From the NCBI GenBank assembly GCA_017456285.1, contig JAFTJQ010000002.1, positions 1 through 55,174 of the forward strand: a stretch of 55,174 bases of DNA. The letters are read 5' to 3'. The position numbers and the translations under genes are program-made. The stretch's first letter is position 1, and each line of letters opens with the position of its first letter. Under the pieces are notes generated by a model that did not search any database, was not told the origin of the DNA, and was given only the letters and a program-made list of their open reading frames with translations. Below, in pieces: positions 3,031 to 36,887 of this stretch. The DNA is from Lentisphaeria bacterium (GTDB lineage Bacteria > Verrucomicrobiota > Lentisphaeria > Victivallales > Victivallaceae).

Positions 3031-3053
3031 AGGAAAAACCAATTTAACTTCAT
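3027..3053 (-). other. Possible 8-codon coupling ORF between two tad-like genes
   Basis: The stop of the upstream TadE-like gene (TGA, 3050-3052) overlaps an ATG at 3051-3053, giving ATGA. That ATG opens an 8-codon frame (MKLNWFFL) whose TGA at 3027-3029 overlaps the ATG (3028-3030) of the next long gene. A ribosome could therefore be handed on twice by ATGA overlaps across a gap with no clear Shine-Dalgarno. Whether the peptide is translated is unknown. Confidence 0.3.
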
Positions 3054-3619
3054 TTTAAAAATCTGTGACTATGATTGTAAAAAGAATATGTCGATCGCAC
3101 CGAGGCATCGTCAAAACCCATGTGCAGCAACCCGCCGATACCATCAGTCAACATCGGAGCATGTTCCAACCGAACCTGAATCCTGACTTCCGCTCCGTTT
3201 TTGCTGCTTATTGAATGCTTCAACTGCGTTCCTGAAGCTTGAGAGCATGTAGCACACCCCTTATTCTGCCAATACTCAAAATCGACATCGGCATTGCCTG
3301 ACATCATATACTGCTGCATTCTTTCTTTGAGCGAATATTCGGACAGATCTCGCATTTTCGGCTTTGAATAATCCTTGCCTGAAATTCCCATCGCTGATAA
3401 TCTGACAGTTTTTTCGGTAATTCTGGGGGTGTACCCAAGCGACCACGCTTTCGCACCGTTAAATGCTGCATAACGGCAAACCATTTGATCCATGGCAAAA
3501 GAAAATACTTGCATGACCCCGAAAAAGATTAAACAAAGCAACATAATAGCAATCATCGACTCAAGAATCGATGCGCCTGTTTCATCCTTGATAATCTTTT
3601 TCAAGTCACTGCATTTCAT
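3050..3619 (-). CDS. TadE-like pseudopilin
   Basis: A 189-residue protein with DETGASILESMIAIMLLCL near the N-terminus: a Gly followed at +5/+6 by the conserved Glu of prepilin-like signals, then one hydrophobic helix (about residues 15-45). This is the TadE arrangement. The body contains a CATC pair (GCATCSQ) and no recognised enzyme motif. The ATG lies 2 bases after the acyl-CoA synthetase stop, and its own stop overlaps the next start region, so it is tightly operonic. It is probably inserted in the inner membrane and assembled into, or with, a type IVc-like pilus. Confidence 0.72.
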   Translation of the reverse strand: MKCSDLKKIIKDETGASILESMIAIMLLCLIFFGVMQVFSFAMDQMVCRYAAFNGAKAWSLGYTPRITEKTVRLSAMGISGKDYSKPKMRDLSEYSLKERMQQYMMSGNADVDFEYWQNKGCATCSQASGTQLKHSISSKNGAEVRIQVRLEHAPMLTDGIGGLLHMGFDDASVRSTYSFYNHSHRFLK

Positions 3620-8785: not shown

Positions 8786-9158
8786 AATCAGTGCAACTAT
8801 AAGCCGGATTTTGTATCCGCACGAGGCGGACGGCAATCATCTATCTATGCGACCAGAACCCGAAATTCAAGCGTTACGAGCAGCAACTCATTTCCTATTT
8901 GGTCTTGCTGCGAAAGGGGTTTGCCTGAGCGACAGGGCTTACACTTACTGCCCGGTGGGCTCTTACCCCACCTTTTCACCCTTACTCGCACCTTTTGCAA
9001 GGCACAAGCGGTATCTTCTCTGTGGCACTTTCCTTCCGGCGGCTTATTGTCCGCCGTATCCTTTTCAAAAATCAAAGGACTTCCTGCTCTATGCAGTCCG
9101 GACTTTCCTCTCACATTGAAAAAATCAACATGAACGATTGCCCGTTGCACCAATATCC
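8786..9158 (-). ncRNA. rnpB: RNase P RNA (bacterial class A)
   Basis: Read on the minus strand the sequence holds the universal P4 core GAGGAAAGTCCGGACT (near 9097-9112) and, at the 3' end, ACAAAATCCGGCTTATAG. In between come GCCACAGAGAAGATACCGC, AGGGTGAAAAGGTGGGG and TAAGAGCCCACCGG, all standard RNase P landmarks. The ends pair as P1: GTGCAAC (9144-9150) with GTTGCAC (8791-8797). P2 pairs GGCAATC with GATTGCC. The RNA processes the 5' ends of tRNAs. Ends are approximate to within a few bases. Open frames on either strand here are not genes. Confidence 0.96.
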
Positions 9159-9165
9159 AACTAAT

Positions 9166-9193
9166 AATATAATCTAATAAGTTGTATATTCAA
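9166..9193 (-). promoter_or_regulatory. Promoter of rnpB
   Basis: A -35 TTGAAT (9188-9193) and a -10 TATATT (9166-9171) are separated by 16 bp on the minus strand. The predicted start, about 7 bases on, falls at 9157-9159, right at the beginning of the P1 helix of the RNA. Confidence 0.75.
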
Positions 9194-9262
9194 CTTAAAA
9201 ATGAAAAAAAATGCGTTTTTTTTAGTTTCAACAAACTTTTTTTAACTTGCCGAACTTATCTT

Positions 9263-10150
9263 TTAATCCAAAATACAAGGCACCCCGTCAGCATCTTCAC
9301 CGAAGCGGTAGAGCTTCATGCGTTCAAGCGGACGGTCATTCGGCTGGTGCAATGAAAGATAATACTGTCCGTCAAAGTTCTTGAAAATTCCGCAATGTCC
9401 GCCGTTTGCTCCGAAAAGCGGCTTCTCAAGCTGAGTCCATTCGCCGTCAAGTTTACCATTGCTGCTGACTGCAATACCGACAGTATAACCGCCGTCACCC
9501 TTGCTTGACCAAAGCATATAGAGTTTGCCATTGCTGCTTTGATACATACAGGGGCCGTCGGTAATGTAGCAAGGATATTTTGCTCCATTGTTTGAACTGA
9601 TTGCACGGCACCATGAAGCATCCGTAGCAGAGAACATCAATCTCGGATTGCCGCAGGCTTTTTTCAAATCATCAGTCAATGGCACATAACACATTGTACC
9701 ATCACAAACTTGCAGCCACTCGTGGCAGAAAATCATATAGGGTTTACCGTCTTCAAAATACAAAGTTCCATCCAGACACATCCAATGCTCCGGAGTTACA
9801 GGCCCCTCTGACCACATTTTATATTCGCCATCGGGAGTGTCTGATACTAAAACATAAGTTCCACGATAATCGCCCTCGCGATTAATTGTGCCGAAAAGAT
9901 AATACTTCCCATTGTAAGCATACATTTCCGGTGCCCAATACTCAAGGGTATCTGCCATATCAGGAGTTGGAGTGTAGATAGTTTTTGCTTCACTCCAGTG
10001 GATTAAGTCCTCACTCACATAGACAACGAAAATCACATTGTAATCGGCATTAGTTCCGGTTAAATAATATTTGCCGTTGTGCGGCATGATAAACGGATCT
10101 CTGATTCTAATGTCATCAGCGGTCAACGGATATTTAGTTAAATCTGTCAT
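9263..10150 (-). CDS. Glycoside hydrolase family 43 (beta-xylosidase/arabinosidase type)
   Basis: A 295-residue single-domain five-bladed propeller enzyme. The catalytic base Asp18 sits in IRDPF at the start of blade 1, followed by the GKYYLTGT, WAPEMYAYNGKYYLFG, LDGTLYFEDGKPYMIF and ITDGPCMYQSSNGKLYMLWSS motifs. The last has Asp where many GH43 enzymes have the acid Glu before GP, a variant seen in some subfamilies. No signal peptide, so probably cytoplasmic and acting on imported oligosaccharides. It starts 11 bases after the ADP-ribosylglycohydrolase-fold gene, forming a two-gene operon. Exact sugar specificity cannot be read. Confidence 0.88.
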   Translation of the reverse strand: MTDLTKYPLTADDIRIRDPFIMPHNGKYYLTGTNADYNVIFVVYVSEDLIHWSEAKTIYTPTPDMADTLEYWAPEMYAYNGKYYLFGTINREGDYRGTYVLVSDTPDGEYKMWSEGPVTPEHWMCLDGTLYFEDGKPYMIFCHEWLQVCDGTMCYVPLTDDLKKACGNPRLMFSATDASWCRAISSNNGAKYPCYITDGPCMYQSSNGKLYMLWSSKGDGGYTVGIAVSSNGKLDGEWTQLEKPLFGANGGHCGIFKNFDGQYYLSLHQPNDRPLERMKLYRFGEDADGVPCILD

Positions 10151-10161
10151 TATAAAACTCC

Positions 10162-11634
10162 TTATTTGTTTAAGTTTTTATTATTATCTCTATCAAATGC
10201 ACCCAAAATGAACTTGTATTCATGGTTGGCAAGGCAGAAAAACAGCGGTGTTGAAGTCTGCTCCTCATCGTAGGGAGAGAGAGCTATTGACAAATTATAG
10301 GTGCCTTTTTTCATAAACATACGCAAATTCTGGTTAATGTGCGGACGATTAGTTGACGGAACAAAATCGCCTCTTGACTGACCGAATTGCAGTTCATCAT
10401 TAAGCCACACCAGACAGCGGCAAGTCGCCGCCACGATAAAGGCATAACGTCCGTCATAAGGCACTTCCATTTTCATCTCATAAATACGGAAACTATCGCC
10501 CTCAAGATCACTTAAATCGACATCCCAAGTCAAATTACCCTTGAAAGTCATATCGCTAAGTTCGATTGCATTAATTTTGTCACGGGAAATATCCCCTCTG
10601 GACTTCGGTACAGAGACACCCGTTTTGGCATGAATTTCAAAATCTTTCCAAACAGGCTCAATCGGCATTGAGTCGTCACAAACAATTTTGCCCTGCCATG
10701 CCATAATTAAATCAGTAAGCTCATCCAAAGTTGCAGGCGGATTAATTCCGGTAATCTCTTTACTTACCACCAAATTTCTGCCGATCGGCTTAAGCCACTG
10801 CTCCTCAATTCCGTCGGGATTAATAATTCCCAAAATCGCACCGACAGTTGCCGCAGTACAATCCGCATCACGTCCGCAATTATTTGCCAGACAGATTGAT
10901 TTACCGAAAACTCCCTTGCCCAAAATCAATGCCATAATCATAAACGGAATATTCATTACCACATCGGTAAAATTCGGACTGCCGTATTTACGGATAATAT
11001 TACGGCGGACAACCAATGGGTCATCGCTTTCAGAACACCAGTTAATTGTATCTCTGACCGCTTGTGCCAAACGACTATCTGCGGGAATATACTTAAGACC
11101 TTTTTCAATTAATTGCATAATATCGGTTTCGCCGAATGCCAAACTCTCCAAAGAGGTCAAAAACATTTCAGCATAATATCCGTCACCGCAGTGGTCAACT
11201 TCGGCATCAAATCGAGCATATTTTACCGCTGTATCAGGGTCATTAGGAGCAAGGAACGCCCAAATTTCACTTCGAATTGCCGCACCTAAACCGTCACGGA
11301 AAGCATTATCATACTGTCCTGAAAAAGGCGGCAAAATTCCTTTCTCAATATTACGAATTGCTACCGCATATTCATCGACATAGAAATGTACATTATCAAC
11401 CCATGCTTTAGCGAAATTTTTTCTGGAAAGCACTCCATTCCAATCACTTGCAATTTTACAAATCCACAAAATCTGCAAATCCAAATCATCATTGGGCTGC
11501 ATTTCAGTCGGCTCGGGAGTGTATCTATCTAAATGCAAAGGTCCGCGAAGCCCTTCGCATGGCTGACCTAATGTACCGCCGACAGCTTTGCCGAACAAAC
11601 CGCCCAAAATGCGTTCTCTGATTGAAAAACTCAT
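10162..11634 (-). CDS. ADP-ribosylglycohydrolase-fold protein in a glycan operon
   Basis: About 490 residues. The N-terminal domain (about 1-330) has the ARH/DraG fold signature: RERILGGLFGKAVGGTLGQP, the metal-binding NDDLDLQILW, and NNCGRDADCTAATVGAILG, which corresponds to the GGDTDT metal site. The C-terminal 150 residues look like a beta-rich, possibly carbohydrate-binding module. ATG at 11634 is chosen because AGAAAGGAAA lies just upstream; the 30-codon extension before it is AT-rich leader. Its operon partner is a GH43. Relatives are usually annotated as ADP-ribosylation hydrolases, but partnership with a glycosidase makes a sugar substrate plausible. No nitrogenase genes are here. Confidence 0.82.
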   Translation of the reverse strand: MSFSIRERILGGLFGKAVGGTLGQPCEGLRGPLHLDRYTPEPTEMQPNDDLDLQILWICKIASDWNGVLSRKNFAKAWVDNVHFYVDEYAVAIRNIEKGILPPFSGQYDNAFRDGLGAAIRSEIWAFLAPNDPDTAVKYARFDAEVDHCGDGYYAEMFLTSLESLAFGETDIMQLIEKGLKYIPADSRLAQAVRDTINWCSESDDPLVVRRNIIRKYGSPNFTDVVMNIPFMIMALILGKGVFGKSICLANNCGRDADCTAATVGAILGIINPDGIEEQWLKPIGRNLVVSKEITGINPPATLDELTDLIMAWQGKIVCDDSMPIEPVWKDFEIHAKTGVSVPKSRGDISRDKINAIELSDMTFKGNLTWDVDLSDLEGDSFRIYEMKMEVPYDGRYAFIVAATCRCLVWLNDELQFGQSRGDFVPSTNRPHINQNLRMFMKKGTYNLSIALSPYDEEQTSTPLFFCLANHEYKFILGAFDRDNNKNLNK

Positions 11635-11685
11635 AATATTATTTTCCTTTCTTCTATTTAACCATAATTTTACGGTAATAATCAT

Positions 11686-11694
11686 AATATAGCA
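11686..11694 (-). promoter_or_regulatory. Extended -10 promoter for the GH43 operon
   Basis: On the minus strand TGCTATATT (11686-11694) is an extended -10 about 52 bp upstream of the ATG at 11634. A clear -35 is absent, as is common for extended -10 promoters. Confidence 0.5.
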
Positions 11695-11795
11695 TACTTT
11701 TCGAAAAAAACTCGTTTTTTTCAAAAAAAATTAATAAATATTTCATATTTTTTGCGACAATAACTCTATCCAAAAAAAATTAATTTCGTGATAGT

Positions 11796-11818
11796 TATTC
11801 TTAAATAATACAAGAATA
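11796..11818. promoter_or_regulatory. Inverted repeat in divergent intergenic region
   Basis: TATTCTT (11796-11802) and AAGAATA (11812-11818) form a 7-bp inverted repeat with 9 bases between. It sits in the 407-bp divergent space between the GH43 operon and the first pseudopilin gene. Possible operator; in such AT-rich DNA chance is a real alternative. Confidence 0.3.
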
Positions 11819-11891
11819 CAACTTTTTCAGGAACGATTCAATAATTATTCAGTTTTTTTGCTAAAAAACACAATACATTAAGACAACTTAT

Positions 11892-11945
11892 TTGAAGTTT
11901 TTTTGGCAACTTGATATTGACTTTTGCCATTTTTAGTGTTACAAT
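11892..11945 (+). promoter_or_regulatory. Promoter and degenerate operator of pseudopilin-sialidase locus 1
   Basis: A -35 TTGACT (11917-11922), a 17-bp spacer and a -10 TACAAT (11940-11945) predict a start near 11952 and a leader of about 90 bases. Immediately upstream, TTGAAGT (11892-11898) and ACTTGAT (11909-11915) are 10 bp apart. This is a weak version (5 of 7 in the right arm) of the inverted repeat found at 25947-25970 and 49642-49665. Confidence 0.65.
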
Positions 11946-12041
11946 ATATGTAGTTTTTTCGCACTTGATGTGTTTTTTAATCGCCTCAAGTATTAGACCC
12001 CAAAAAAAACAAACAAATAAAAAAGAAAGAAAGGCTAAATT

Positions 12042-12749
12042 ATGAAAAACTTATTAAAATTCACCCTCATTGAGTTGTTGGTTGTTATCGCAATCATCGC
12101 AATTTTGGCAGGTATGCTGCTCCCCGCACTCAACAAAGCCCGTGAAAAAGCTCGTGCAATTTCATGCACCAACAACAAAAAACAGTGCATGCTCGCAGTT
12201 ACTATTTATTGTCAGGATCACAACGGCACAATGGTTATCCGTCACGGCGAAAACATGACTCCCAAAAATATCACTTGGTTCGCTCTTCTGAAAAATAATA
12301 ACTATGCAGCCAATTTGTCAGAGGCTCAATGCCCGTCAATCAGGTTCAAACCCCACAAAGATGACGACACTTATAATGGTTGCCAAACTATTTACGGTAT
12401 GCCGCGCTCTGTATCAACATGGCAGGATTATTTAGGCAAAAGCAGCTATTCAATCCCCAACAGTGCCGGAGAGGATGATTTTGCATGTATGATTAATTTG
12501 TACAACTTGAAAAATGCAAAAATGCTTATGGCGTGTACTTTCAGTAATACAAATAACTGGCAAAGTTTTGAATGGCATTTAACTTCTGATCGTGCAAATT
12601 TAGCGAGCTTTGTTCATGGCGAAAGAAATGCTATCGGCTGGAGTGACGGTCATGTAGAATCAATGACTGCAACTGCGGTTGCTGATGAATTAGAAGACGG
12701 CGGTTTCACAGGAACTTTTGCCTACTATCTTAACGGCGTCAAAAAGTAA
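12042..12749 (+). CDS. Pseudopilin with H-X9-DG C-terminus (locus 1)
   Basis: 235 residues. The N-terminus has a class III-type prepilin signal: KNLLK, then [20 protein letters not shown], with Glu at +5 after the expected cleavage. The residue before the Phe is Lys rather than the usual Gly. The globular part ends [20 protein letters not shown], where His, nine residues, then Asp-Gly match the 'prepilin-type processing-associated H-X9-DG' domain. Such proteins occur in large paralogous sets in Lentisphaerae. It is probably an inner-membrane or extracellular fibre subunit of a type II secretion-like assembly. The sialidase starts 40 bp downstream with no terminator between. Confidence 0.88.
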
Positions 12750-12788
12750 TATTTTATTCCCTCTTTTCATTTAAAGGAAAATTATAAG

Positions 12789-14504
12789 ATGAAAATAAAA
12801 AAAATACTCTATTGGGGATTATTGTGCCTTTTTTCGGCAGTTTTCGCCGACGAAAAAGATTATCCTTTCGGAACTGTTATCCTAAATGGCGGCAGAATTG
12901 AGCCAGTCAGCATGTCATTAATTGAATCCACTAATGAACACTTGAATTTTTGCTTCGCCCAAAACTTTTCGGACGGTTCAATTTATCTCCGTCACTCCGG
13001 CGGTATTCATACCGTTTCTGAATATGGGTGCCGTGACTACTCTTTGGACAATGGTGTTACTTGGCAGCGTGGGCAAAAAGGGTGTCTGGGTGGATTTAAT
13101 GCCTACGAAACACTTGATGGGAAAAAATGTCAAATTGAGTGCTGGGATAATAAAGTTTCTGATACTCATACTTTAATTCACAAAACTGCTGACAAGAACC
13201 ATATTGGTCAAGTTACAAAATCAACTATTAAACTGCCATACAAAAGTTCTTTCCGCCTGCATCGCAAAGTGCTTCGCACCAAGGATAATCGCTTGCTTTT
13301 AACGGGCTATGGCTACAAAGAAAATGCCAATAAAAATCATTCGTTTTTGATTGAATCGACCGATGACGGCAAGTCATGGCACTACTACTCAACTATTTTG
13401 GAAGACTATTCTGTACAATTTACAGAAGGCCCGAATGAAGCGGATGTAGTCGAATTAACTAATGGGGATTTTTTGGCATTTGTCCGATTGACAGCACTTG
13501 GAGACTTGGTGCAGCTTAGAAGTCGTGACGGCGGCAAAACTTGGGGAGATCGCAAAAATATTGCTCCATTCTGCGTTGCACCAATGGCACATGTGATGAA
13601 AAACGGCACCTTGCTGATTGTTTCCGGGCGTCCGGCACTTTATTTATTAATAGACTTTACCGGCACCGGAAATAATTATCAAACCTATCAAGTCTATGGC
13701 GGAAGCGGAAGTTCTTATGCTTCAATTTTGGAGACAGCCAAAGACCAAATCACGGTTGTTTATGACGAAAGCGACATTGGGGCTTGGAAAAATCTGGCTC
13801 GATTCAGCAGAATTTTTGCCGCCAGATTTAATGTCATAAAAGATGACAAACTCCTTGCTTCCAATGCAACTCACCCAAAAGCAAAAGAATATCAAGTTTT
13901 CTACTCTCCTGATTGTGGAATGGCGATTGAAAAGCGAACTAATTTTTTCTCTCACGGACTACTTCATCGCTCAAATGAAAAAGCGGCTCAAAATAATACT
14001 TGGTGGGAAATTCAAAAAATTGCCGAACGCCCATATCCAGTGTTGCATTTGGAGTTAAAGGGCGAAGCACGCCCCTACCGCTTCGCAAATTACCGTGCCA
14101 ATTTACAGGGAGTTGAACCATACTCAAAAGTCAAAATCGGTTGGGAGTTACGAGTTAATGACCATGGTACTGATGCCCCTCAGTTTCAAGTCCTTTGCTC
14201 TTTTGCTCAAACTTCAAGTTTTGCAGTTGTTGAGTTTACTAAAAACAAAATTTTATTGAAAAGCAATAATCAACCGATTGAAATCCCTTATGATTTACAT
14301 GGTAAATTTAAAGCTTTTGAACTCCACGCAGATGCAAACAGTGCAACTTGGAAGTTAGTTGACGGCACTGGTAAATTGATTTCAGAAGGCAAATTGAATC
14401 CTAACAAAAATCACTTTGACAATCGCATCCAATTCGGAGACGGGTCAAACGGTGTTGCAGGTTCAGTTGATTTGTCCTACATCGGTTATGATTTGCAAAA
14501 ATGA
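12789..14504 (+). CDS. Secreted sialidase-superfamily (BNR) protein, locus 1
   Basis: 571 residues with signal peptide (KKILYWGLLCLFSAVFA). The middle is a six-bladed sialidase propeller: Asp-box-like SLDNGVTWQ, STDDGKSWHYY and SRDGGKTWGD, an arginine-containing FRLHRKVLRTKD in the place of the FRIP motif, and EGPNEADVVELTNGDFLAFVR in the place of the conserved Glu/Arg strand. The C-terminal part (about 420-571) is a beta-sandwich ending GSVDLSYIGYD, shared with the locus 2 paralogue. Probably an exo-sialidase or related glycosidase acting outside the inner membrane; specificity is not shown by sequence. AAAGGA lies upstream. Its neighbours are a pseudopilin and an SSS symporter. Confidence 0.83.
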   Translation: MKIKKILYWGLLCLFSAVFADEKDYPFGTVILNGGRIEPVSMSLIESTNEHLNFCFAQNFSDGSIYLRHSGGIHTVSEYGCRDYSLDNGVTWQRGQKGCLGGFNAYETLDGKKCQIECWDNKVSDTHTLIHKTADKNHIGQVTKSTIKLPYKSSFRLHRKVLRTKDNRLLLTGYGYKENANKNHSFLIESTDDGKSWHYYSTILEDYSVQFTEGPNEADVVELTNGDFLAFVRLTALGDLVQLRSRDGGKTWGDRKNIAPFCVAPMAHVMKNGTLLIVSGRPALYLLIDFTGTGNNYQTYQVYGGSGSSYASILETAKDQITVVYDESDIGAWKNLARFSRIFAARFNVIKDDKLLASNATHPKAKEYQVFYSPDCGMAIEKRTNFFSHGLLHRSNEKAAQNNTWWEIQKIAERPYPVLHLELKGEARPYRFANYRANLQGVEPYSKVKIGWELRVNDHGTDAPQFQVLCSFAQTSSFAVVEFTKNKILLKSNNQPIEIPYDLHGKFKAFELHADANSATWKLVDGTGKLISEGKLNPNKNHFDNRIQFGDGSNGVAGSVDLSYIGYDLQK

Positions 14505-14548
14505 TTATTTTTGCAATATTCACTATCAAATTAATTTAAAGGAGAAAA

Positions 14549-16363
14549 ATGTTAAATAATCTAAACAATTTAATGCAAGCTATTTTGCAAAATGGTTGGG
14601 ACTACTCCATGATAATTATTTATCTTGCAGCAGTTTTGGCTATCGGTTTATACTGCTCAAGAGGCAATAAAACTGCGGAAAAATACCTTATGGCAGGACG
14701 GCAATTACCCTTTTTCGCCGTCGGCATGGCGTGCGTAATGGCGTTACTTAGTTCCGTATCGCTGGTAATGGTTCCGGGAGAAATTTACAATAACGGTCTT
14801 ACGCTGTTTTTAGTGCAAAACACTTTAGTTACTGTTTTGTCAATTCCCTGTTATCTGCTTTTTACCCGATTTTATTTTCGCCTGGGAAGTTTCACTCCCT
14901 ACGAATATCTGGAATACCGCTACGATAAAACCGTCAGAGGAGTAATCGCCGCCGCAGTTTTCTATACCAGAACGATGTATTTAGGTATGGTTATCTATAC
15001 CACAGCTAAAATTTTTGAAGCATCATTTCATTGGTCGCCGTTATTCTCAATTTTGCTGGTCGGAGTTTTCGCAATTTTCTATACCTTCAAAGGCGGTGCG
15101 ACAGCGGTTATCTGGACGGATGTACTGCAATTCGTAGTGCTTTTCGGAACATTTGCGGCAGTTATTTTTATCCTCTGTTATAAAATTGACGGCGGTGCAG
15201 TTGCTGCAGTTTCTACCGCTTTTGCTCAAGGGAAAGGAGCTCCGCAATTCCATGATCCGGACTTCTACAAAATTACTCCGTATGTTCGATTATTGTTTTT
15301 CCTGATGGTGTGGAATGGAATTATGGGGCCATTGACTACCGCATGCAGTGACCAAATCATCATCCAAAGACTTTTAAGCACAAAAAACTGGAAAGAGGGC
15401 TTCAAAGCACAGTGCGTTTCAACCGGATTCAGTGCCATATTTACATTGGCATTATGGTTTGTTGGTTTAGCAGTATTCACCTATTACCACCAAAATCCCG
15501 ATTCAGCCATCCAAGCAGGTGCCGGCGACAAAGCATTTTTCCACTTTGTTGCGACGGAACTTCCGACTCCGATTCCGGGACTGTTTATTGCGGGGATGCT
15601 GGCAGCAATTATGAGTACATTAAGTTCAGGCATGAACTCAATGGCAACCATTTGGCTTAAGGAGTTCCACGTTACATTCATCAATAAAAAACTTGATGCT
15701 TCGGGCGAAGTAAGAATTTCCAAACTTGCCACCTTGTGGATTGGTATATTTGTAATCGTTTTCGGCGTTTTACTTGAGTATTCCGGTAAATATCTCAAGC
15801 AGTCAGTTGCGGAAGTTCAAACACTTTTTATCATCTTCGGAACTGCAATCCTCCCTGCATTCCTTTTTGCCGTACTCTCAAAAAGGGCAAATTCCAAACT
15901 TATCTGGGGATTCTGTATTTATGCTTTCGGAGAGAGAATTGCCAATAATGTTTGGTACGCTTTAAGTCGTCCGGCGGTCGCTGCATGGAATGCCGACCCG
16001 AGTGTAGGTTTCGGCTGGGGCGGCAAATTACCATTTGATTGGTACGTCTATATCTGGATAATTCTCGGAGTTGCATTTGCTGTGCCGTATTTTGTTAAAA
16101 CTATCCGCGATCGCTGGTACGGTAAATTATCCGGACTTACGGCGTGTTTCTGCTTCGGAGTTTTGCAGTCGATGCTGATTTGGTATATTTACAGCAATGT
16201 TTATGTCAAAGATATTCCGCTTGAAAGAAGTTTCGCCTTTGCTTTGCCGATTGATTATATCATCGCCTTTATCGTGCTTCAATTCTGTCCGATTCAGCCG
16301 AAAGAAAAGTATCAAGGCTTAACTTTGAGTACGCTTAACGAACCTATTTTGCAGAAAAAATAA
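14549..16363 (+). CDS. Sodium/solute symporter (SSS family), locus 1
   Basis: 604 residues with about 13-15 hydrophobic helices. SSS signatures: GRQLPFFAVGMACVMALLSSVS and VPGEIYNNG in the first helices, and MLAAIMSTLSSGMNSMAT in TM8, where the Ser/Thr cluster forms the Na2 sodium site. It imports a small organic solute with Na+. Because it follows a sialidase gene, sialic acid or another released sugar is a reasonable guess (known SSS sialic-acid carriers exist), but no sialate catabolic gene is in view. A strong AAAGGAG Shine-Dalgarno precedes the ATG. Last gene of the operon, followed by a terminator. Confidence 0.9.
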   Translation: MLNNLNNLMQAILQNGWDYSMIIIYLAAVLAIGLYCSRGNKTAEKYLMAGRQLPFFAVGMACVMALLSSVSLVMVPGEIYNNGLTLFLVQNTLVTVLSIPCYLLFTRFYFRLGSFTPYEYLEYRYDKTVRGVIAAAVFYTRTMYLGMVIYTTAKIFEASFHWSPLFSILLVGVFAIFYTFKGGATAVIWTDVLQFVVLFGTFAAVIFILCYKIDGGAVAAVSTAFAQGKGAPQFHDPDFYKITPYVRLLFFLMVWNGIMGPLTTACSDQIIIQRLLSTKNWKEGFKAQCVSTGFSAIFTLALWFVGLAVFTYYHQNPDSAIQAGAGDKAFFHFVATELPTPIPGLFIAGMLAAIMSTLSSGMNSMATIWLKEFHVTFINKKLDASGEVRISKLATLWIGIFVIVFGVLLEYSGKYLKQSVAEVQTLFIIFGTAILPAFLFAVLSKRANSKLIWGFCIYAFGERIANNVWYALSRPAVAAWNADPSVGFGWGGKLPFDWYVYIWIILGVAFAVPYFVKTIRDRWYGKLSGLTACFCFGVLQSMLIWYIYSNVYVKDIPLERSFAFALPIDYIIAFIVLQFCPIQPKEKYQGLTLSTLNEPILQKK

Positions 16364-28538: not shown

Positions 28539-29456
28539 TCAATATCTTTTAAGCAATATCCAAGCGGCAACGATTCGCAGTTCGGGATTATCTGATTTCA
28601 AATATTTATTCAATTCCGTCAAGGCAAATTCAGCATCATCGGTATACAACAAAACTTGACACCACGCCTGACGATAAAGCCATGAGCGATCATTCTCAGG
28701 TAATTTATCCAGAGATTGTTTTACATCTGCAACTTTCTGAAAGGAAATTTTCCCATATTTTAGCAGTAACTCACCTGCAAGCATCCTTGCTTCAGGTGGC
28801 AAATTTGAATTTAATAACGCTTTTTGAAGTGCGGAAAATGTCTCCGGATTTTGCAACTTTTTAATGTAATAAAGTCCCCACACGCCAATTGTCGGAGTAA
28901 GTTTATTTGCCGTATGCTCGCTCAAAGAGCTAACTAAAAACGCTTCTCTCTCCCCATCATTATCATCAATAATCCAACTTGACATGTAACGCATAAGCTC
29001 ATCAGCTTCAGAATTACTTCTCAATTTTTTGAGGTAAATCAAATCCTCTTTTGAACCTTTGTAATAGAGTTTACCCAGCGTCTCCGTAGCCGAAAACTTG
29101 TCAGGCACCTCATCGAGAAATGCTCTCGCATGAATTTCTCTCAAACGTCTTTCCTTATCTGAATTCAATCTCACAAGTATTCGATTATGACCGTTACGCA
29201 AAAACTCTTGCCCGGAATATTTTTGGTCGTGCTTCAAAAAATGTTCTCTTACAGTTTCAAGTTCCAAATTCAAATCCAGAAGATATTCTGCACTATGAAT
29301 CTGCACCCACGGAGAATCATTTTCAAGTTCATCGGTCAATAATTTTTGCCAGCAATGTTTCTTTATTTGAGTATTTTCGCAAATTCGGCACTGACAGCCA
29401 CTAATAAAAATCAGTACCGACACCAAAACAATAATTCTATTTATAGACATAACCAT
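28539..29456 (-). CDS. Lipoprotein with helical repeats, last gene of GTPase operon
   Basis: 305 residues. The signal peptide ends in the lipobox FISGC with Cys21, followed by further cysteines (CQCRIC). The mature part is helical and looks like HEAT/TPR-type repeats: EARMLAGELLLKYG, LYRQAWCQVLLYTDDAEFALTELNKYL and PELRIVAAWILLKR. Such folds bind other proteins. Its start overlaps the end of the preceding GTPase gene by 20 bases, so it is translationally tied to it. It is the only predicted lipid-anchored component of the system. No enzymatic motif is seen. Confidence 0.75.
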   Translation of the reverse strand: MVMSINRIIVLVSVLIFISGCQCRICENTQIKKHCWQKLLTDELENDSPWVQIHSAEYLLDLNLELETVREHFLKHDQKYSGQEFLRNGHNRILVRLNSDKERRLREIHARAFLDEVPDKFSATETLGKLYYKGSKEDLIYLKKLRSNSEADELMRYMSSWIIDDNDGEREAFLVSSLSEHTANKLTPTIGVWGLYYIKKLQNPETFSALQKALLNSNLPPEARMLAGELLLKYGKISFQKVADVKQSLDKLPENDRSWLYRQAWCQVLLYTDDAEFALTELNKYLKSDNPELRIVAAWILLKRY

Positions 29457-31791
29457 TTCCGTCGCAACTGTAACACTTATTACTGGTAGTCCGCTTGCCG
29501 TAAGAACAGTATGAGCAACTTCTTTTGACCTTTACTTTGCCATAAGAATCGCAACTGTAACAAGTAGTTGTGTCAAGCCAGGTTCCCTTGCCATCGCAAT
29601 ATGAACAAGTCCCGTTTATATATCCTGTTTCATTGCATGGTGCACAATAGAGCCAGCCATTGCCATTACACTCCGAACATTGCAAGAAGCCAATATATCC
29701 ATAGCCATTACAAGGACCACATACATATCCATGATAGGTTGAAACCTGTCCGGTTGCACTATTGGTGACTACACCGCATCTGGCTCCATTATAAGTAGCA
29801 TCGCACTCTTTCAAAATTTTGCCATCACCCTCGCAAACTGAACAATTTTTCCAAGCAGAAATTTTTTTACTGCCATTACAGGCGGAGCAATTTTCTTCAA
29901 TGGAAGTTTCGCCTGTCCCATTACAATTCCAGCAATCAGAAGTACTTGAAACTGAACCTGATGCACCACATGAAGTACAATTAGTTCGATGCAGCCAAGT
30001 TCCCTCGGTATTACCGGCTTTGCGTTTTTTATCGAGAGTAATATATCCCGGATTCCAAACTGCTTCAGTAATATAATTTTTATCGGGATCTTTTTGCTTG
30101 TATCCCTCTTCCGTAACCCATTTTCCCTCATCGGTATGACTTATCCAATGCGGATGTTTTTTAGATGGGATACCGGCTTTCCATTCAATTTTGTCCCCGC
30201 CTGCCCAAACATAACCTTCTTCATTAGAAATCCACTTATCTGTTTCAGGGGCGGATGTCAATTTAGAGTTATTAGGGTGAATAAGACCTGCTTTCCATGC
30301 AATATTGCTGCCGCTTGTCCAGACATAACCGGGCTTACTGCAAATCCAAACGCCTTCTTTTTCGCCGGAGGTCAATAAATCATTTGCAGGATGTTTACGA
30401 TTCGGAATCCAAATTGCCACTCTTTTGCCGTTTTCTTCAACAATTTTATATCCATTTTGTTCTTTTTGACGCAAATTTGCTTCATATTGTTCTGCCAATA
30501 ATTTCACGTGCAGTTCATGCTGTTTGTGCTGATAATTTTTATATGCAACATTGCCTGCAACAACCAAAACACCCAACAAAAGAACGATAGACAAAGTAAT
30601 AAATGTCTTTTTTTTGACGGCATTAGCACGAGCTGTTTTAATTTTATTATAAAAATAATTTATTTCAGAACTTAATCGCTCTTGATTTTCTGCAATTTTT
30701 GCGGATGATTGAGCATATTTTTCAAGTTTGGTCAATGCACTATTGCAATCTTGAGCAGTAATACTTTGCATAATTTCACGAGCAGCAACTTCAAATTGCA
30801 AAATTTCTTGTGCTTCATTTGCGATATTTTCAGAAACTTCACAAGCTTTTTGCGGAGATTTAGCATTTGCCTCATGGAGCTGCTGAATAGTATCACTTAA
30901 TTCCTCTGCAATATTACATCGCTCAAAAGTATTCAACTCCAAACTATTAAAATATTTTGCATATAAATCATTTGCTTTCTGACAGAGTTTCGACGGTGCC
31001 AATCTATTTTCAATCATAGATTGTGCCACCGCTTCAAACCCCGGAGTTTTGGCAATAATCCATTCCATGAGTTCATCAAGTCCCTCTGATTCAAACCCTT
31101 GAGCAGGCACAGCCATGCCATTTTCATCAGGGACAGTCTTATTGATTGCAGAAACGGCAAAAATCGGCAAGTCATCATACAAATTCGCCACATGCGGTAA
31201 ATACTTCTGCAAGACCCCCTGATTCCCTCCGCAAGCAGCAATTTCTTCTCTGTAAACATCGGATTGCGATAAAACAATCGCCACATCTTTATTTTTTCCA
31301 TTCCTTGTAGCATAATCAATCACGCTTTTGCTTAACCACATGGTTTCGCGAGTTCGGATATTAGAGGGACTGCCATTAATAATATCACTCAAATTGACAA
31401 TAACTACCAATAAATCAGATTCCGCAATATGATCTTTAAGCACCGTTATTTCGTCGCCCCATGCACTGATTTCTTCTTCGGTGTGTTCTCCGAAAGAGAG
31501 TCGATACAATTCCCCGGCAAAGTCAAGCAATGATAATTGACACACCAATTCTTTCTGCTGACCTGTTCGATGATAAATCGACCAATCCAAGTTGCTGTTG
31601 GTGGTTGTCGCTGCCGGCCATTGTCCATTTTTCATCGCTTCCATGTGTAACTTAACAAAACCGAAAGCTCTGGAATTTTCAGGGGACATGAAGATACCCG
31701 AACTGTCCGGATTCTCATATTTGTCACCAATCGCACTTAAAAGAACAGTTTTCCCGCTTCCTTCAACCCCCACAATAGAAATTTTTCTCAT
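29437..31791 (-). CDS. Membrane GTPase with DnaJ-like zinc-finger array
   Basis: 784 residues, not a standard family. Layout: P-loop GTPase (1-250) with Walker A GVEGSGKT (8-15), Walker B LLDFAGE (88-94) and SQSD (175-178) where NKxD is expected, in the style of the 'double-GTPase' proteins of NTP-dependent conflict systems; helical/coiled region (250-390); one TM helix (395-417); two to three repeats of GYVW..G..I.WKAG (about 445-590); and a C-terminal array of about eleven CxxC(x)GxG modules (605-784) like the DnaJ zinc domain. The GTPase would be cytoplasmic and the Cys array on the far side of the membrane, if there is only one TM. Confidence 0.8.
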   Translation of the reverse strand: MRKISIVGVEGSGKTVLLSAIGDKYENPDSSGIFMSPENSRAFGFVKLHMEAMKNGQWPAATTTNSNLDWSIYHRTGQQKELVCQLSLLDFAGELYRLSFGEHTEEEISAWGDEITVLKDHIAESDLLVVIVNLSDIINGSPSNIRTRETMWLSKSVIDYATRNGKNKDVAIVLSQSDVYREEIAACGGNQGVLQKYLPHVANLYDDLPIFAVSAINKTVPDENGMAVPAQGFESEGLDELMEWIIAKTPGFEAVAQSMIENRLAPSKLCQKANDLYAKYFNSLELNTFERCNIAEELSDTIQQLHEANAKSPQKACEVSENIANEAQEILQFEVAAREIMQSITAQDCNSALTKLEKYAQSSAKIAENQERLSSEINYFYNKIKTARANAVKKKTFITLSIVLLLGVLVVAGNVAYKNYQHKQHELHVKLLAEQYEANLRQKEQNGYKIVEENGKRVAIWIPNRKHPANDLLTSGEKEGVWICSKPGYVWTSGSNIAWKAGLIHPNNSKLTSAPETDKWISNEEGYVWAGGDKIEWKAGIPSKKHPHWISHTDEGKWVTEEGYKQKDPDKNYITEAVWNPGYITLDKKRKAGNTEGTWLHRTNCTSCGASGSVSSTSDCWNCNGTGETSIEENCSACNGSKKISAWKNCSVCEGDGKILKECDATYNGARCGVVTNSATGQVSTYHGYVCGPCNGYGYIGFLQCSECNGNGWLYCAPCNETGYINGTCSYCDGKGTWLDTTTCYSCDSYGKVKVKRSCSYCSYGKRTTSNKCYSCDGNGYVYK

Positions 31792-31816
31792 GCTAATATC
31801 CTCTTGTATCGTTAAT

Positions 31817-33169
31817 TTAATTTTTAATTATTTCAGAACTATTGGTTCGCTGCTTTATAGCGTCATCTGCCTGATTATTCAAAGTTCCTGCCGCATTAGG
31901 CTTATTTTCATCATTATTTTGAGTTGGCTTATCACTTTTATCAAGGGGAGTTCCCCCCATATTAGTTTTTGTTTTTTCTTTTTCTTCCGTTTCAAGAGCT
32001 TTTTCGGAAACATAATCATTATTATTTTTTAACTTCACTTTATGTTTAGGACATAATCTTAACTCGATTTTTTCTCCCCTGCCATTACAGTAAATACAAA
32101 TTCTCCCCCGATATATTCCACTTCTCCGACACTCCTGACAGCCAATAATTGCCTCTCCACAGTCCGGACATGGTTTTTCTTTATTGTTAAAATCAATCGG
32201 GTTTTGATTATTTACGATCGGATTTATCGAATTATGCCTTGAATTGGGCTTCTTCGATGGTCGTTCAGACGGTTCTGCAGGAGCAAAAATAATATCCTCT
32301 TTCGGAGCATCCGGTTTTATGATATTTACATTTCCTTGCGGTTCACGAATCAACTTGTCATTAGTCTGAATTTGCGGTATTTCCAGGGTTTCAATTTTCA
32401 TGCTTTCGGGAGCCTCCAAGAGACCTTTAAGCCAATAACCAATTACAATACCTGTAATCAAACAACTAATTGCAATTATCAAAAACAACAAAAAAGGGCT
32501 TCCATGATTATTTTCACTGGTTCGTTCAATCGGAGTGTAATGGGAAGAAAATTTATTTTCTTTCTTCAACGAATCAGCTTTGTCTGCAGTTTGCTGCGGC
32601 ATGGGATTGGCAATTTTGCTATTGTTATTATGAATAATTGATGAGGCTTTGTAATTTACCGCAATAAGCGGAAAATTTTCACTGCCGTTAATTCTTATAA
32701 TAAGATCATTATTCGGTGCATTACTTAAGAAAGTTCCAATAAGCGATAAATCCTCTTTTTTTGAGTAATTTTTATTGAATGAAGCACCAAAATCAATAGT
32801 TGTCGGCATTGAACTACCGCCGACATAATTTACTTCAACAGGAAAAATATTGCTGGTTCCGGAAAACTCCGGCAATGCAAAAAGTTTTTTGAAGTCAATT
32901 TGCCCTGCTTGAGTTTTTTCACACTCTCCCAAAACCAAGTACAGAGCATCTCTACCTTTGGAATCTGCCTGCTTTGCAATATGAAAACGGTAAAATACCG
33001 CCTTGTTATTACACAAAAAAGCTCCGCCGAATGGAATAACATCAACCGTCGGATCAGGAAATCTCCCAATGATTCGCTTGTAGTTAATCAAATCATTATT
33101 GCTAATTTTAGTGCCATTTTGCCAACTGTACCCCTCAGTTGCAGTATACACAGCTAAATTCAACTTCAT
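31817..33169 (-). CDS. One-TM zinc-ribbon protein, GTPase partner
   Basis: 450 residues. N-terminal domain (1-175) unrecognised, with NNKAVFYRFHIAKQADSKGRD and YLVLGECE; a distant likeness to GTPase-associated N-domains is possible but not claimed. One TM helix at about 226-247, a Pro/Ser/Asn-rich stalk, then a small DnaJ-like cysteine patch (PCPDCGEAIIGCQECRRSG...CIYCNGRG, 334-364) and a charged Asn/Lys-rich tail. The layout (domain, TM, CxxC) parallels the neighbouring 784-residue GTPase, so the two may pair through their cysteine modules. The gene spacing is 25 bases on one side and 23 on the other. Confidence 0.72.
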   Translation of the reverse strand: MKLNLAVYTATEGYSWQNGTKISNNDLINYKRIIGRFPDPTVDVIPFGGAFLCNNKAVFYRFHIAKQADSKGRDALYLVLGECEKTQAGQIDFKKLFALPEFSGTSNIFPVEVNYVGGSSMPTTIDFGASFNKNYSKKEDLSLIGTFLSNAPNNDLIIRINGSENFPLIAVNYKASSIIHNNNSKIANPMPQQTADKADSLKKENKFSSHYTPIERTSENNHGSPFLLFLIIAISCLITGIVIGYWLKGLLEAPESMKIETLEIPQIQTNDKLIREPQGNVNIIKPDAPKEDIIFAPAEPSERPSKKPNSRHNSINPIVNNQNPIDFNNKEKPCPDCGEAIIGCQECRRSGIYRGRICIYCNGRGEKIELRLCPKHKVKLKNNNDYVSEKALETEEKEKTKTNMGGTPLDKSDKPTQNNDENKPNAAGTLNNQADDAIKQRTNSSEIIKN

Positions 33170-33192: not shown

Positions 33193-34218
33193 TTAATTAA
33201 TGCTATTTCTCATCGCTTCAATAATGTCATTTGTTTCAGAGTATTTTTCAAGTTCATGCATCAACTGCAATCTTCTATGCTCAACAAAAAACATCCGCTC
33301 CTTGCGATTCCTTTTAAATCTCTGTAAGTCATTAAAAAATTTAATAATTGAGTTATTGAGATAATTTAAACGTTTTTCTGTCGGACTCAAATTAAGAATA
33401 GTGTGTTCGAAATCACGAATACCCGATTCAATAATTTCTTCATCATTATTATTATTTTTGCCACGCATCGCCATTTTGGCATTCACGAAATGCCAATTAA
33501 ATCGTGATGGCAATGCGGTGCTATTGACCTTGGCAAACTCTTTTTGCTCTTCCAAAGAAAATTCCTCAAAACAATTTACGACAATATTATCACAACGTCC
33601 CTGTAAAAATTTATTGTAAAAATCCAATTCGACTTTAGTAATCCCCTGAAGCGACTTAATTACCCAGAAAATATAATCCACCTGCGGCAAATAATCCAAT
33701 AAACTTGCATAGTGGCTTGCTCCGCCTGCGGCAGTTGCCGCCCCTAAACCGGGGGTATCTGCAATTACCAGACCGTCTTTGAGCAACTCTGACGGCATTT
33801 TGGCGTACAATATACTGGTGCTGGCATTTTCTTTCGCAGTAGCATATTTTTCAATCGCTGCCAACATCTCATCAGGAGAATCAAAAATTTCCGCTGAAGT
33901 TTCAATGGTATTTGAAAACTCAGCATTAATCTCATACTGTGAGGAATATCTGTACTCAACCGGAACTGAACTCCATGGTCGGTTGCATGCAGGAGCAACC
34001 TTGTCGCCGAAAAGAGAGGATAATAATGTCGATTTCCCGGAATTTGTCAAGCCCACAAATGCAACAACAGGTTCTCTATTTTCCTTTAGATTAAGAAGAT
34101 CTCGCAACTTGCCCTGTATCAAGCGGAAAGTTGTTGCCAATTGAGAATTTCCCTCTTTTTCATGAAAAGCAGCACTCTCTGCCAACATTATCCGATAAAT
34201 TTTAAATAAATTCTGCAT
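33193..34218 (-). CDS. Dynamin-like/Era-type GTPase A
   Basis: 341 residues. Walker A GLTNSGKST (56-64) and DTPGLG (154-159). The usual NKxD is replaced by NCFE (215-218), so nucleotide specificity may be relaxed. The last 80 residues are helical and basic (FNDLQRFKRNRKERMFFVEHRR). The pattern PVEYRYSSQYEINAEF after switch I is typical of bacterial dynamin-like proteins. No TM helix. It lies 3 bases downstream of the larger dynamin-like gene, the usual arrangement of paired bacterial dynamins. Confidence 0.82.
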   Translation of the reverse strand: MQNLFKIYRIMLAESAAFHEKEGNSQLATTFRLIQGKLRDLLNLKENREPVVAFVGLTNSGKSTLLSSLFGDKVAPACNRPWSSVPVEYRYSSQYEINAEFSNTIETSAEIFDSPDEMLAAIEKYATAKENASTSILYAKMPSELLKDGLVIADTPGLGAATAAGGASHYASLLDYLPQVDYIFWVIKSLQGITKVELDFYNKFLQGRCDNIVVNCFEEFSLEEQKEFAKVNSTALPSRFNWHFVNAKMAMRGKNNNNDEEIIESGIRDFEHTILNLSPTEKRLNYLNNSIIKFFNDLQRFKRNRKERMFFVEHRRLQLMHELEKYSETNDIIEAMRNSIN

Positions 34219-34221
34219 CGC

Positions 34222-35886
34222 CTATTTCTCCAAAACTGTATATAATTCTTTTGCTTCATTCTGAATAGTTCCCAGCATAGTATCAAGCATTTTCAATCGC
34301 TCAATATATCTTTGGTCAATCGTTCCCTTTGACTCCATGGCACTCTGCAAAGCCTGTACAGTCGGAGATATTTCCAGAATGAAATAATTTTCAAGTTCCT
34401 CCATTATTTCACAGCGTTGACCTTCCAATCCCTTTAATTGAGCTATAAAAGATTCACGCATATCTTTCACTACTCTCGGCAGCTGCTTATGCAAATCAGC
34501 TTTCACTGAAGCAACTGTGTATAAATAAATTCCGGTACCGATTAATGGGACAGCATTTAAAAGCATTAATTTCAACGTTCCGCTGGAAGTTCCGCTCATA
34601 AACATATTACGGTAAACTTCACCATTAATTGCCGCATCAACTCCGGTAAATTTCAATGGTAATTGATTAATGGCAGTCATAATATTATTTTCAAATTCTT
34701 TGAACAATGGATTCATGACATTTTCAACTAATTGAGTAAATTTTTTACAGAAAAGTTTTTTAGCATTGGTACAGTTGAAAAAACCGATAGTATCAATATA
34801 ATTGCTCATCTGCAATTCAATATAATGCATCGCATCATCGACATCCTGCAAAAGTTTATTTTCAGATTGAATCCAAACATTTTTCAATTTAGCCATCTGT
34901 TTTTTTTGCAGTTCCTCAAGGTTGATGCCTTTATCGGTAAGTGCCTCAATTTCCTTTTGCAACTCCTCTTTGCTTTTGCTCAAGGCCGCAATTTCTTCAG
35001 AAACGCCACTTTTTAATAGCTCAATCATCGGGGCAACTTTATTCATGAAGCGAAGACGCGGAATGCGATATTTCTCCTTTTCGAGAAAATCTCTGACATC
35101 CTGAAAAAGTTCCTCCATGCCGCTGTCAATCCAATTTCCCTCCAAAGCAAGTTTAGCACTGATCGGGTAAATTTTATTAACCGCAATTCCAGCGTGTGCC
35201 AAAATATTCAAATTATGTTCAATTGCATCACGCAAATCATCTTCATCAGTTTGGTCTACCCGATTGATAACAAAAAACATCTTCTGCGTATCCTGTTTGA
35301 TAATGGATTGCAGAAACTCCAATTCAGATTCTGTAATCGGCGAATAGGCTGTAATCAAAAAAATTCCAGCATCAACCATCGGCAAAAATTTATAGAGCAA
35401 GTCATCGTGATGCTGATTCAAAGATCCCTCTCCGGGGGTATCCATCAAAACTACCCCATTCGGCAATCTTTCAAAATCATCCTGCACATTGACATGACTG
35501 ACATTTAATGTGTTTCCGGGATTAAGCTGTTCAGTAATATATGATGGAATATCACTTAACGATATCTCCTGTTTTTCACCGTTAAAGAAATTTACCTCGA
35601 TTTTTTTGGAACCTTTTTGAAAGAAAGTTATCGCATTGGAAACCGGAGTTTTGCCAGTTGGAGCATAACAATCATTGCGAACCCCTAAAAGGGCGTTACA
35701 GAAAGTTGATTTCCCGCGTTTAACCATTCCCAAAACCGCCAGAGAAAACACACCGCTTGAGAGATCTTTAATTGAGCGATCAAGCATATTTACTGCAATA
35801 TCCTGTTTGCGTTCAGCGGCTATATTTTTCAAATCTTCAGCAATTTTCAAATATTGTGAATTATCTACAAATTTCAATGTATTCAT
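34222..35886 (-). CDS. Bacterial dynamin-like GTPase B
   Basis: 554 residues. G1 GMVKRGKST (53-61), switch Thr81 in APTGKTPVS, G3 DTPGEG (149-154), G4 NRVD (208-211): a complete dynamin-type G domain. A long helical stalk follows (EEIAALSKSKEELQKEIEALTDKG), with a hydrophobic patch at about 437-461 (LMLLNAVPLIGTGIYLYTVAS) that would insert in membrane like the paddle of BDLP or LeoA-type proteins. Such proteins remodel or seal membranes, and some are anti-phage or toxin-linked. It pairs with the smaller GTPase gene 3 bases downstream. Confidence 0.86.
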   Translation of the reverse strand: MNTLKFVDNSQYLKIAEDLKNIAAERKQDIAVNMLDRSIKDLSSGVFSLAVLGMVKRGKSTFCNALLGVRNDCYAPTGKTPVSNAITFFQKGSKKIEVNFFNGEKQEISLSDIPSYITEQLNPGNTLNVSHVNVQDDFERLPNGVVLMDTPGEGSLNQHHDDLLYKFLPMVDAGIFLITAYSPITESELEFLQSIIKQDTQKMFFVINRVDQTDEDDLRDAIEHNLNILAHAGIAVNKIYPISAKLALEGNWIDSGMEELFQDVRDFLEKEKYRIPRLRFMNKVAPMIELLKSGVSEEIAALSKSKEELQKEIEALTDKGINLEELQKKQMAKLKNVWIQSENKLLQDVDDAMHYIELQMSNYIDTIGFFNCTNAKKLFCKKFTQLVENVMNPLFKEFENNIMTAINQLPLKFTGVDAAINGEVYRNMFMSGTSSGTLKLMLLNAVPLIGTGIYLYTVASVKADLHKQLPRVVKDMRESFIAQLKGLEGQRCEIMEELENYFILEISPTVQALQSAMESKGTIDQRYIERLKMLDTMLGTIQNEAKELYTVLEK

Positions 35887-35909: not shown

Positions 35910-36887
35910 CTATTGGTAATCCACCTTATTCATTTTTTCCCACAATTCAGGGAATGCTTTTTCTACAAGTTTAATTTTTATAGCAAAAAAGCAATTTTCA
36001 TAATCATCATAACCGAAAGTATTAACTCCAATGACTTGACCATTCAAGTTAAACAGAGGCCCCCCGCTATTGCCGCCATTAATAGTTGCACTCATTTCAT
36101 AACAATCATTGTTATTTACAATTCGATTAACAGCCTTAATTACTCCTTTATCGTAAGTAATTTCCGGAATAACAGTCTTGCTGTTACCCAAAGTATATGC
36201 AGGATAGCCAAGTGTATATACCTCCTCTCCCTGCATTACTTTCCCACAAAAAACTGCCAAAGGATGAATTGACAAATCAGCATATTCAAGTTGCAGCCAC
36301 GCTAAATCATAATCCGAAGAAACAGCTTTCAAAACAACGCTTCTGGCAACCAAGGAACTATCGCTATTTTCCCATTTCGGGTGATAAATAGAAATTTTTT
36401 GACCAATACTTTCCGCAATAACATGTTTATTCGTGATAAAATCACGATTTGTTACAGCAAATGCAGTTCCGTATGACCTCATACCATCAACCGAAGTAGT
36501 TGCCAAGTTGGCCTCTACACCGACCACACTATCACGAACATCAATCTGAACAATATCTTCTTGAATTACGGTATCATTACAAAATAATCCACCCACAAGA
36601 ACAAGCCCGACAATAGCACCGAAAATAATTAAAATAATAATCATTATCGTAAAAAGATAACGTTTTTTAGGCGGAGCAACTACTGTATCGGCAGACATCA
36701 TAAAAGATTTACGGGAAGTATTAATGCTGCTGCTGTCAAAATTGATATTGTTTTCAGCGGCATTATTGGGTTGCGAAAAATTATTATCTCTTTTATTATT
36801 TTTGGTATCTTCAATGCTTTCTTCAGCAGGAGAAAGTTTTTGCATCCTTTTTAATTGACGCTCCAAAAATTCTTCAGTTCTACTCAT
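35910..36887 (-). CDS. Membrane-anchored trypsin-like serine protease
   Basis: 325 residues, first gene of the operon. A cytoplasmic N-terminal tail of about 75 residues, one TM helix (78-102) and a chymotrypsin-fold domain with an intact triad: His155 (TNKHV), Asp194 (DYDLAWL) and Ser274 (INGGNSGGP). It is similar to DegP/HtrA proteases in the S1C family but without a visible PDZ domain. If the TM is type II, the protease domain is periplasmic. It may process a membrane or periplasmic partner when the GTPases signal. A 22-bp palindrome lies 36 bp upstream. Confidence 0.88.
   Translation of the reverse strand: MSRTEEFLERQLKRMQKLSPAEESIEDTKNNKRDNNFSQPNNAAENNINFDSSSINTSRKSFMMSADTVVAPPKKRYLFTIMIIILIIFGAIVGLVLVGGLFCNDTVIQEDIVQIDVRDSVVGVEANLATTSVDGMRSYGTAFAVTNRDFITNKHVIAESIGQKISIYHPKWENSDSSLVARSVVLKAVSSDYDLAWLQLEYADLSIHPLAVFCGKVMQGEEVYTLGYPAYTLGNSKTVIPEITYDKGVIKAVNRIVNNNDCYEMSATINGGNSGGPLFNLNGQVIGVNTFGYDDYENCFFAIKIKLVEKAFPELWEKMNKVDYQ

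Follow-up and report, generated by a model that had tools for sequence, protein, structure and literature searches.

A DO-GTPase-type operon in a Lentisphaeria bacterium with a predicted exoplasmic DnaJ-type cysteine array and a dynamin-like gene pair

Longin and roadblock domains bind and regulate Rag, Rab and MglA GTPases. In 2020 the DO-GTPases and their GAP1-centred systems were reported as belonging to conflict systems, and exoplasmic domains beyond a C-terminal transmembrane (TM) helix are known in them (Kaur et al. 2020, PMC7159879); the word "dynamin" is absent from the main text of that paper. Within the Psp network, a DO-GTPase has been tied to membrane stress (PMC11237479). DynA of B. 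subtilis functions in membrane surveillance and in phage resistance (PMC8844932). In plastids, ZnJ6 is DnaJ-like and zinc-only, sits at the thylakoid membrane and has holding and oxidising activity (PMC7865324), and FIP consists of a membrane anchor followed by a C4 zinc finger (PMC5915565).

The window analysed here is a stretch of 55,174 nucleotides from a Lentisphaeria bacterium (contig JAFTJQ010000002.1). It carries the operon listed below, together with the parts of two of its products and the basis of each assignment.

28539..29456, minus strand: HEAT-repeat protein with a lipobox (FISGC); PF13646, E 9e-6, below the cut-off
29437..31791, minus strand: whole DO-GTPase/TM/zinc-array gene, 784 aa; open reading frame list
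29455..29979, minus strand: array of 11 CxxC(xGxG), DnaJ-type zinc modules, aa 605-779 of the GTPase; motif scan
29992..30447, minus strand: tryptophan-rich beta-repeat domain, aa 449-600, predicted exoplasmic; modelled to about aa 560
30547..30603, minus strand: single TM helix, aa 397-415, N-flank charge +6; hydropathy and charge
30604..31035, minus strand: helical stalk into the membrane helix, aa 253-396; AlphaFold, pLDDT mostly 78-94
31042..31791, minus strand: DO-GTPase2-type GTPase domain, aa 1-250; PF19993, model and motifs
31817..33169, minus strand: whole partner gene, 450 aa; open reading frame list
32042..32170, minus strand: zinc-ribbon-like module of the partner, aa 334-376, three CxxC and one CxxH; weak zinc-ribbon matches
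32438..32494, minus strand: single TM helix of the partner, aa 226-244; hydropathy, model helix 225-251
32825..33169, minus strand: N-terminal partner domain, aa 1-115, D-x-x-G-R-D motif, longin-like model; co-occurrence and model
33193..34218, minus strand: dynamin-like GTPase B, 341 aa; PF00350, E 7.6e-16
34222..35886, minus strand: dynamin-like GTPase A, 554 aa, hydrophobic stretch 440-458; PF00350, E 1.7e-21
35910..36887, minus strand: membrane-anchored trypsin/HtrA-type protease, TM 81-99; PF13365, E 3.1e-18

The two central reading frames (31791-29437, 784 aa, and 33169-31817, 450 aa, both minus strand) were recovered as stated in an earlier note on this DNA. Intergenic gaps across the operon are 23, 3, 23, 25 and -20 bases, and promoter and terminator scans returned no more than did shuffled sequences. 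The gene for the HEAT-repeat lipoprotein starts inside the 3' end of the GTPase gene, with an overlap of 20 bases.

The 784-aa protein was found to consist, in order, of a GTPase, a stalk, a TM helix, a coiled region, the tryptophan-rich beta-repeat domain and the cysteine array. Its match to PF19993 (DO-GTPase2) has an E of 8.8e-6 and 26.0 bits, just under the Pfam cut-off of 27; among its homologues, L038 scored 30.7, above that cut-off, and L023 scored 18.7. The GTPase core begins at residue 3 and all of its motifs are intact, namely the P-loop GVEGSGKT (8), LLDFAGE (88), LSQSD (174) and VSAI (213), with the glutamate after Walker B in LLDFAGE being a DO-GTPase2 trait. Searched by sequence against the PDB, the whole protein gave weak DnaJ matches and nothing else. 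In AlphaFold, residues 1-264 gave a model similar to Gtr1p (Z 16.1) and, over 239 residues, to YcjX (Z 15.0); the longest alignments in the match list were those with YcjX. Based on model and motifs, the protein resembles a DO-GTPase2-type GTPase which is Rag/Gtr- and YcjX-like.

About eleven CxxC pairs had been claimed for residues 605-784, after one TM helix, and exactly 11 were counted, at 605, 620, 635, 650, 691, 705, 716, 729, 744, 759 and 773; all CxxC motifs of the protein are confined to 605-776. Shuffling residues 601-784 (n=20,000) gave a mean of 2.9 CxxC and a maximum of 10, and never 11, while the full CxxCxGxG form, seen in six of the 11, had a shuffle mean of 0.06 and a maximum of 2. 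C663, C672 and H687 are additional candidate ligands, and by our own count the array holds 12 ligand pairs if C663/C672 are taken as one. The Pfam model DnaJ_CXXCXGXG (PF00684) matched with an E of 2.1e-6 and 28.4 bits, below the cut-off of 32.7, which the L023 homologue passes with 34.2. Pfam gave no J-domain match in the 784-aa protein, and no thioredoxin fold match. Because the pLDDT of the array in AlphaFold is <50, no fold is claimed for it. "DnaJ-like" is a fair label for this array and a loose one for the cysteines of the 450-aa neighbor. In relatives, most of the remaining matches to the 784-aa query, over about residues 598-680, fall in frames of 380-403 aa which look like ordinary DnaJ and were set aside. 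A 519-aa protein of another genome (L018:1453-3012, G059) starts with what may be a signal sequence and has CxxCxGxG motifs arrayed at its C-terminus, perhaps a further DnaJ-type array of extracytoplasmic location.

The array was also observed in homologues from three other genomes, L023, L024 and L038, with identities of 54%, 25% and 34%, respectively; a loss of the CxxC pairs in close homologues, raised in the earlier note and looked for here in the GTPase, was seen in none of the three. In L023 (a Lentisphaerae MAG, SIG79, G175) all 11 CxxC are aligned, as are C663 and H687, and the total is 13 CxxC. After the single TM helix L038 has 10 CxxC and L024 has 5, the latter making 6 ligand pairs by our count if one C/H pair is included.

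Profiles for VKOR and DsbA found no match in the source genome, which is 98% complete; in control searches they matched in 3/14 and 8/14 genomes, respectively. Since these profiles were silent and the C/H ligands fit zinc sites, structural zinc is favored over a disulfide switch, and the zinc-bound form is the likelier state of the array cysteines.

By hydropathy no second TM helix was found in the 784-aa GTPase, with no further candidate above KD 1.3. The N-terminal flank of the TM helix is positively charged in all four array-bearing GTPases (+6 in the window protein, and +4, +4 and +2 in the others). Furthermore, the tryptophan-repeat domain, which is the part of the GTPase between TM helix and array, recurs in L010 (G027): a protein of 617 aa there matches it with an E of 1e-11, and the N-terminus of that protein, judged by eye, resembles a signal peptide. 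The positive-inside TM helix and the domain held in common with a predicted signal-peptide protein place the array outside, so that the most likely orientation of the GTPase is N-in, C-out with an exoplasmic cysteine array, in agreement with the proposal that a single TM helix puts GTPase and array on opposite faces. The L010 frame (1486-3339) combines the predicted signal peptide and the GTPase-type tryptophan-rich repeats with an N-terminal CxxC motif.

For the 450-aa partner the charges flanking the TM helix are uninformative on orientation. In L075 the partner N-terminal domain is present in a 143-aa protein that has neither a TM helix nor a signal sequence; the domain is therefore taken as cytosolic. 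Beyond the TM helix the partner has CxxC at 334, 344 and 358, followed by C373-P-K-H376, making four ligand pairs, and zinc-ribbon models matched these cysteines weakly (HVO_2753_ZBP, E 0.0045; DZR, E 0.026). The cysteine pairs placed at 334-361 after a single TM helix were thus seen, with C373/H376 in addition. It had also been pointed out that both proteins carry cysteine modules, which is true in this operon and is not a rule: most homologues of the partner have no CxxC beyond the TM helix, so that paired cysteine modules do not appear to be a common principle. The 344-aa partner of L073 has C278, C287, C301 and C304 beyond its TM helix.

The partner homologues have an N-terminal domain in common, in which the motif D-[SF]-x-G-R-[DS] recurs. 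The AlphaFold model of this domain in the 450-aa partner (pLDDT mostly 74-90) gave as top match, over residues 1-123, a Loki longin with a Z of 7.7, an rmsd of 3.8 and 118 aligned residues, and was further similar to TagF (Z 7.2), Lst4 (6.9) and GATOR1 subunits (about 6). The match list is mostly of longin folds; as Z values <8 can come from chance, the longin likeness is regarded as a lead and not as an assignment. A relationship to GAP1-N2 was rejected: the hhalign probability was 0.3%, the single aligned segment was the common D..GR motif, and the Pfam GAP1-N2 model was silent in the source genome.

Members of the GTPase subfamily were identified by scanning in 19/388 genomes of the phylum and the partner domain in 13/388, all 13 being among the 19. 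The hypergeometric probability of this co-occurrence is 5e-20; when the eight seed genomes of the profile are left out it is 7e-9, and both values are optimistic owing to genome relatedness. Twelve of 14 partner-domain loci lie no more than about 4 kb from a GTPase gene. Most genomes with members of the GTPase family are drafts. The partner domain appears to be an unannotated domain strictly tied to the DO-GTPase. A heterotypic contact of the two proteins, as had been suggested, agrees with the near-perfect co-occurrence, but the conserved parts are the cytosolic GTPase and the longin-like domain and not the cysteine modules.

Past the GTPase domain, most of the family members retrieved have one or two TM helices, followed by outer parts that vary: sulfatase-modifying-like in L063/L064, a basic tail in L065/L066 (both named from reading the sequence, not from profiles) and none at all in L067 and L069-L071. 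The cysteine array was seen in only four of the members found. Because outer parts differ, it is viewed as one of several exchangeable tails, and because array-less members still pair with the partner, it is placed outside the core of the module. In genome searches the partner domain was not found in G020 or in G175. Upstream of the GTPase gene the L023 contig (SIG79, G175) has only 369 bases left, which cuts the operon, and the absence of the partner in SIG79 has to be read against the contig end. Neither GTPase nor partner was found in the congeners G001 and G002 (drafts, 84-87% completeness); the operon may therefore be mobile or have been lost. A fuller DO-GTPase cluster (L039:3-13674, G135, Lentisphaeria) encodes an HSP70-like protein, together with a DO-GTPase with a GYF domain and a protein in which a single TM helix precedes zinc-ribbon cysteines and PKD repeats. 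It also encodes an alpha/beta-hydrolase protein with a weak match to the partner domain at its N-terminus (E 1.2e-6).

Two adjacent Dynamin_N proteins (PF00350), the mark of a bacterial dynamin-like pair, are present in the operon. Dynamin A is 31% identical to an L038 gene and matched BDLP1 (2j68, E 2.9e-13) and IniA (E 7.9e-9); dynamin B is 35% identical to an L038 gene, with profile matches to BDLP1 and mitofusins. PADLOC models for LeoA matched the operon dynamins, and no complete PADLOC system was found. Dynamin A, dynamin B, DO-GTPase and partner are clustered in two distant genomes, L038 and L073, and in L024 dynamin-like genes precede the DO-GTPase-TM-CxxC gene; loci with dynamin genes nearby, besides those of the window type, number only three. 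The L024 stretch 8854-15045 (G020) has three consecutive dynamin-like genes followed by a short DO-GTPase in which G3 (LLELPG) and G4 (TQAE) look degenerate. The 325-aa protease has catalytic H, D and S motifs and Trypsin_2 at 140-288; no PDZ domain was matched in it, unlike the HtrA/DegS layout of TM helix, trypsin and PDZ. No GAP1 match was obtained with Pfam in the operon proteins or the partner homologues.

Our preferred reading, to which we give a probability of roughly 0.5, is that the locus encodes a DO-GTPase membrane module lacking GAP1, whose exchangeable outer domain, here the DnaJ-type array, relays a signal from the envelope to dynamin-like proteins. The cytosolic Rag/YcjX-like GTPase would be the switch, and the longin-like domain of the partner would bind and regulate it, as in Rag, Rab and MglA. 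The outward DnaJ-type motifs would bind structural zinc and so form a rigid or peptide-binding surface which might sense misfolded protein, damage or an invader in the envelope, possibly assisted by the membrane-anchored protease and the lipoprotein with HEAT repeats. The array might be an unfolded-protein sensor, as put forward in the earlier note. The signal would pass from the outer domain through the TM helix and stalk to the GTPase, and this could then recruit or license the dynamin-like pair, by which the inner membrane would be remodelled or resealed. A bolder form, doubtful as it stands, is a bacterial outside-in dynamin receptor, in which exoplasmic zinc arrays on a Rag-like TM GTPase sense envelope damage and switch the dynamins through the longin partner; if true, it would parallel, in prokaryotes, the control that longin and Rag proteins exert at membranes. 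For the control of where and when bacterial dynamin-like proteins act, the recurring cluster is a concrete, testable candidate.

The array might alternatively be a chaperone or disulfide-handling device which holds or oxidises envelope proteins, serving the GTPase and the dynamins as an anchor and not as a sensor. The full, DnaJ-style CxxCxGxG motifs, the plastid precedents ZnJ6 (PMC7865324) and FIP (PMC5915565) and the protease and HEAT lipoprotein genes of the operon agree with this; however, the lack of a J domain or thioredoxin fold match, a genome without VKOR or DsbA matches, and the very different outer domains in the family, which fit exchangeable ligand binding better than catalysis, make it unlikely. 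A DO-GTPase-type conflict system, against phages or of another sort, with the dynamin pair as an effector isolating or sealing the membrane of infected cells, would be in keeping with the conflict systems in which the family was described (PMC7159879), the LeoA model matches, the phage resistance conferred by DynA (PMC8844932) and a patchy distribution that leaves out the two congeners searched, but GAP1, a classical effector and a complete PADLOC system were all not found, and we consider it rather improbable. That the cysteine modules are redox switches forming disulfides under oxidative stress, close to the redox sensor of the earlier note, agrees with the predicted exoplasmic side of the CxxC pairs and is nevertheless very improbable, with DsbA and VKOR unmatched in the genome and with xGxG residues and C/H ligand pairs that suit zinc sites.

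Returning to the relay reading, the nearest relatives are the DO-GTPase systems of GAP1-N2 type. Both have a TRAFAC GTPase whose Walker B motif is followed by a glutamate (LLDFAGE), both have a partner linked to the membrane, and in both the exoplasmic domains past a C-terminal TM helix vary, whereas no GAP1 was found at this operon, and the tubulin or HSP70 parts of those systems are replaced here by the dynamin-like pair. About 60% of DO-GTPase/GAP1 members have an N-terminal zinc ribbon; the 784-aa GTPase has none, its zinc-type modules being C-terminal and, by prediction, exoplasmic. The family would thereby be widened to systems without GAP1. The CxxCxGxG motifs are those of the DnaJ cysteine-rich domain (PF00684) and of the J-less plastid proteins BSD2, PSA2, ZnJ6 and FIP, and FIP, too, joins a membrane anchor to a zinc finger at its C-terminus. 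DnaJ has four CxxC, whereas three of the four array GTPases have 10-13 and L024 has 5; unlike in DnaJ and its plastid relatives, the CxxC of the array are mostly 11-15 residues apart and are joined to a GTPase. With DnaJ-type zinc motifs apparently on the outer side of a membrane, the array seems an uncommon case among bacteria. Two adjacent, unequal dynamin-like genes are also found in Cj-DLP1/2, LeoABC, DynA and IniA, but here such a pair goes with a DO-GTPase that spans the membrane and with the partner of that GTPase. With Rag/Gtr and their longin regulators (GATOR1, FLCN) and with YcjX the locus has in common the GTPase fold (Z 15-16) and the longin-like partner model; the identity, however, is about 12-16%, and here each protein is tethered by a TM helix of its own.
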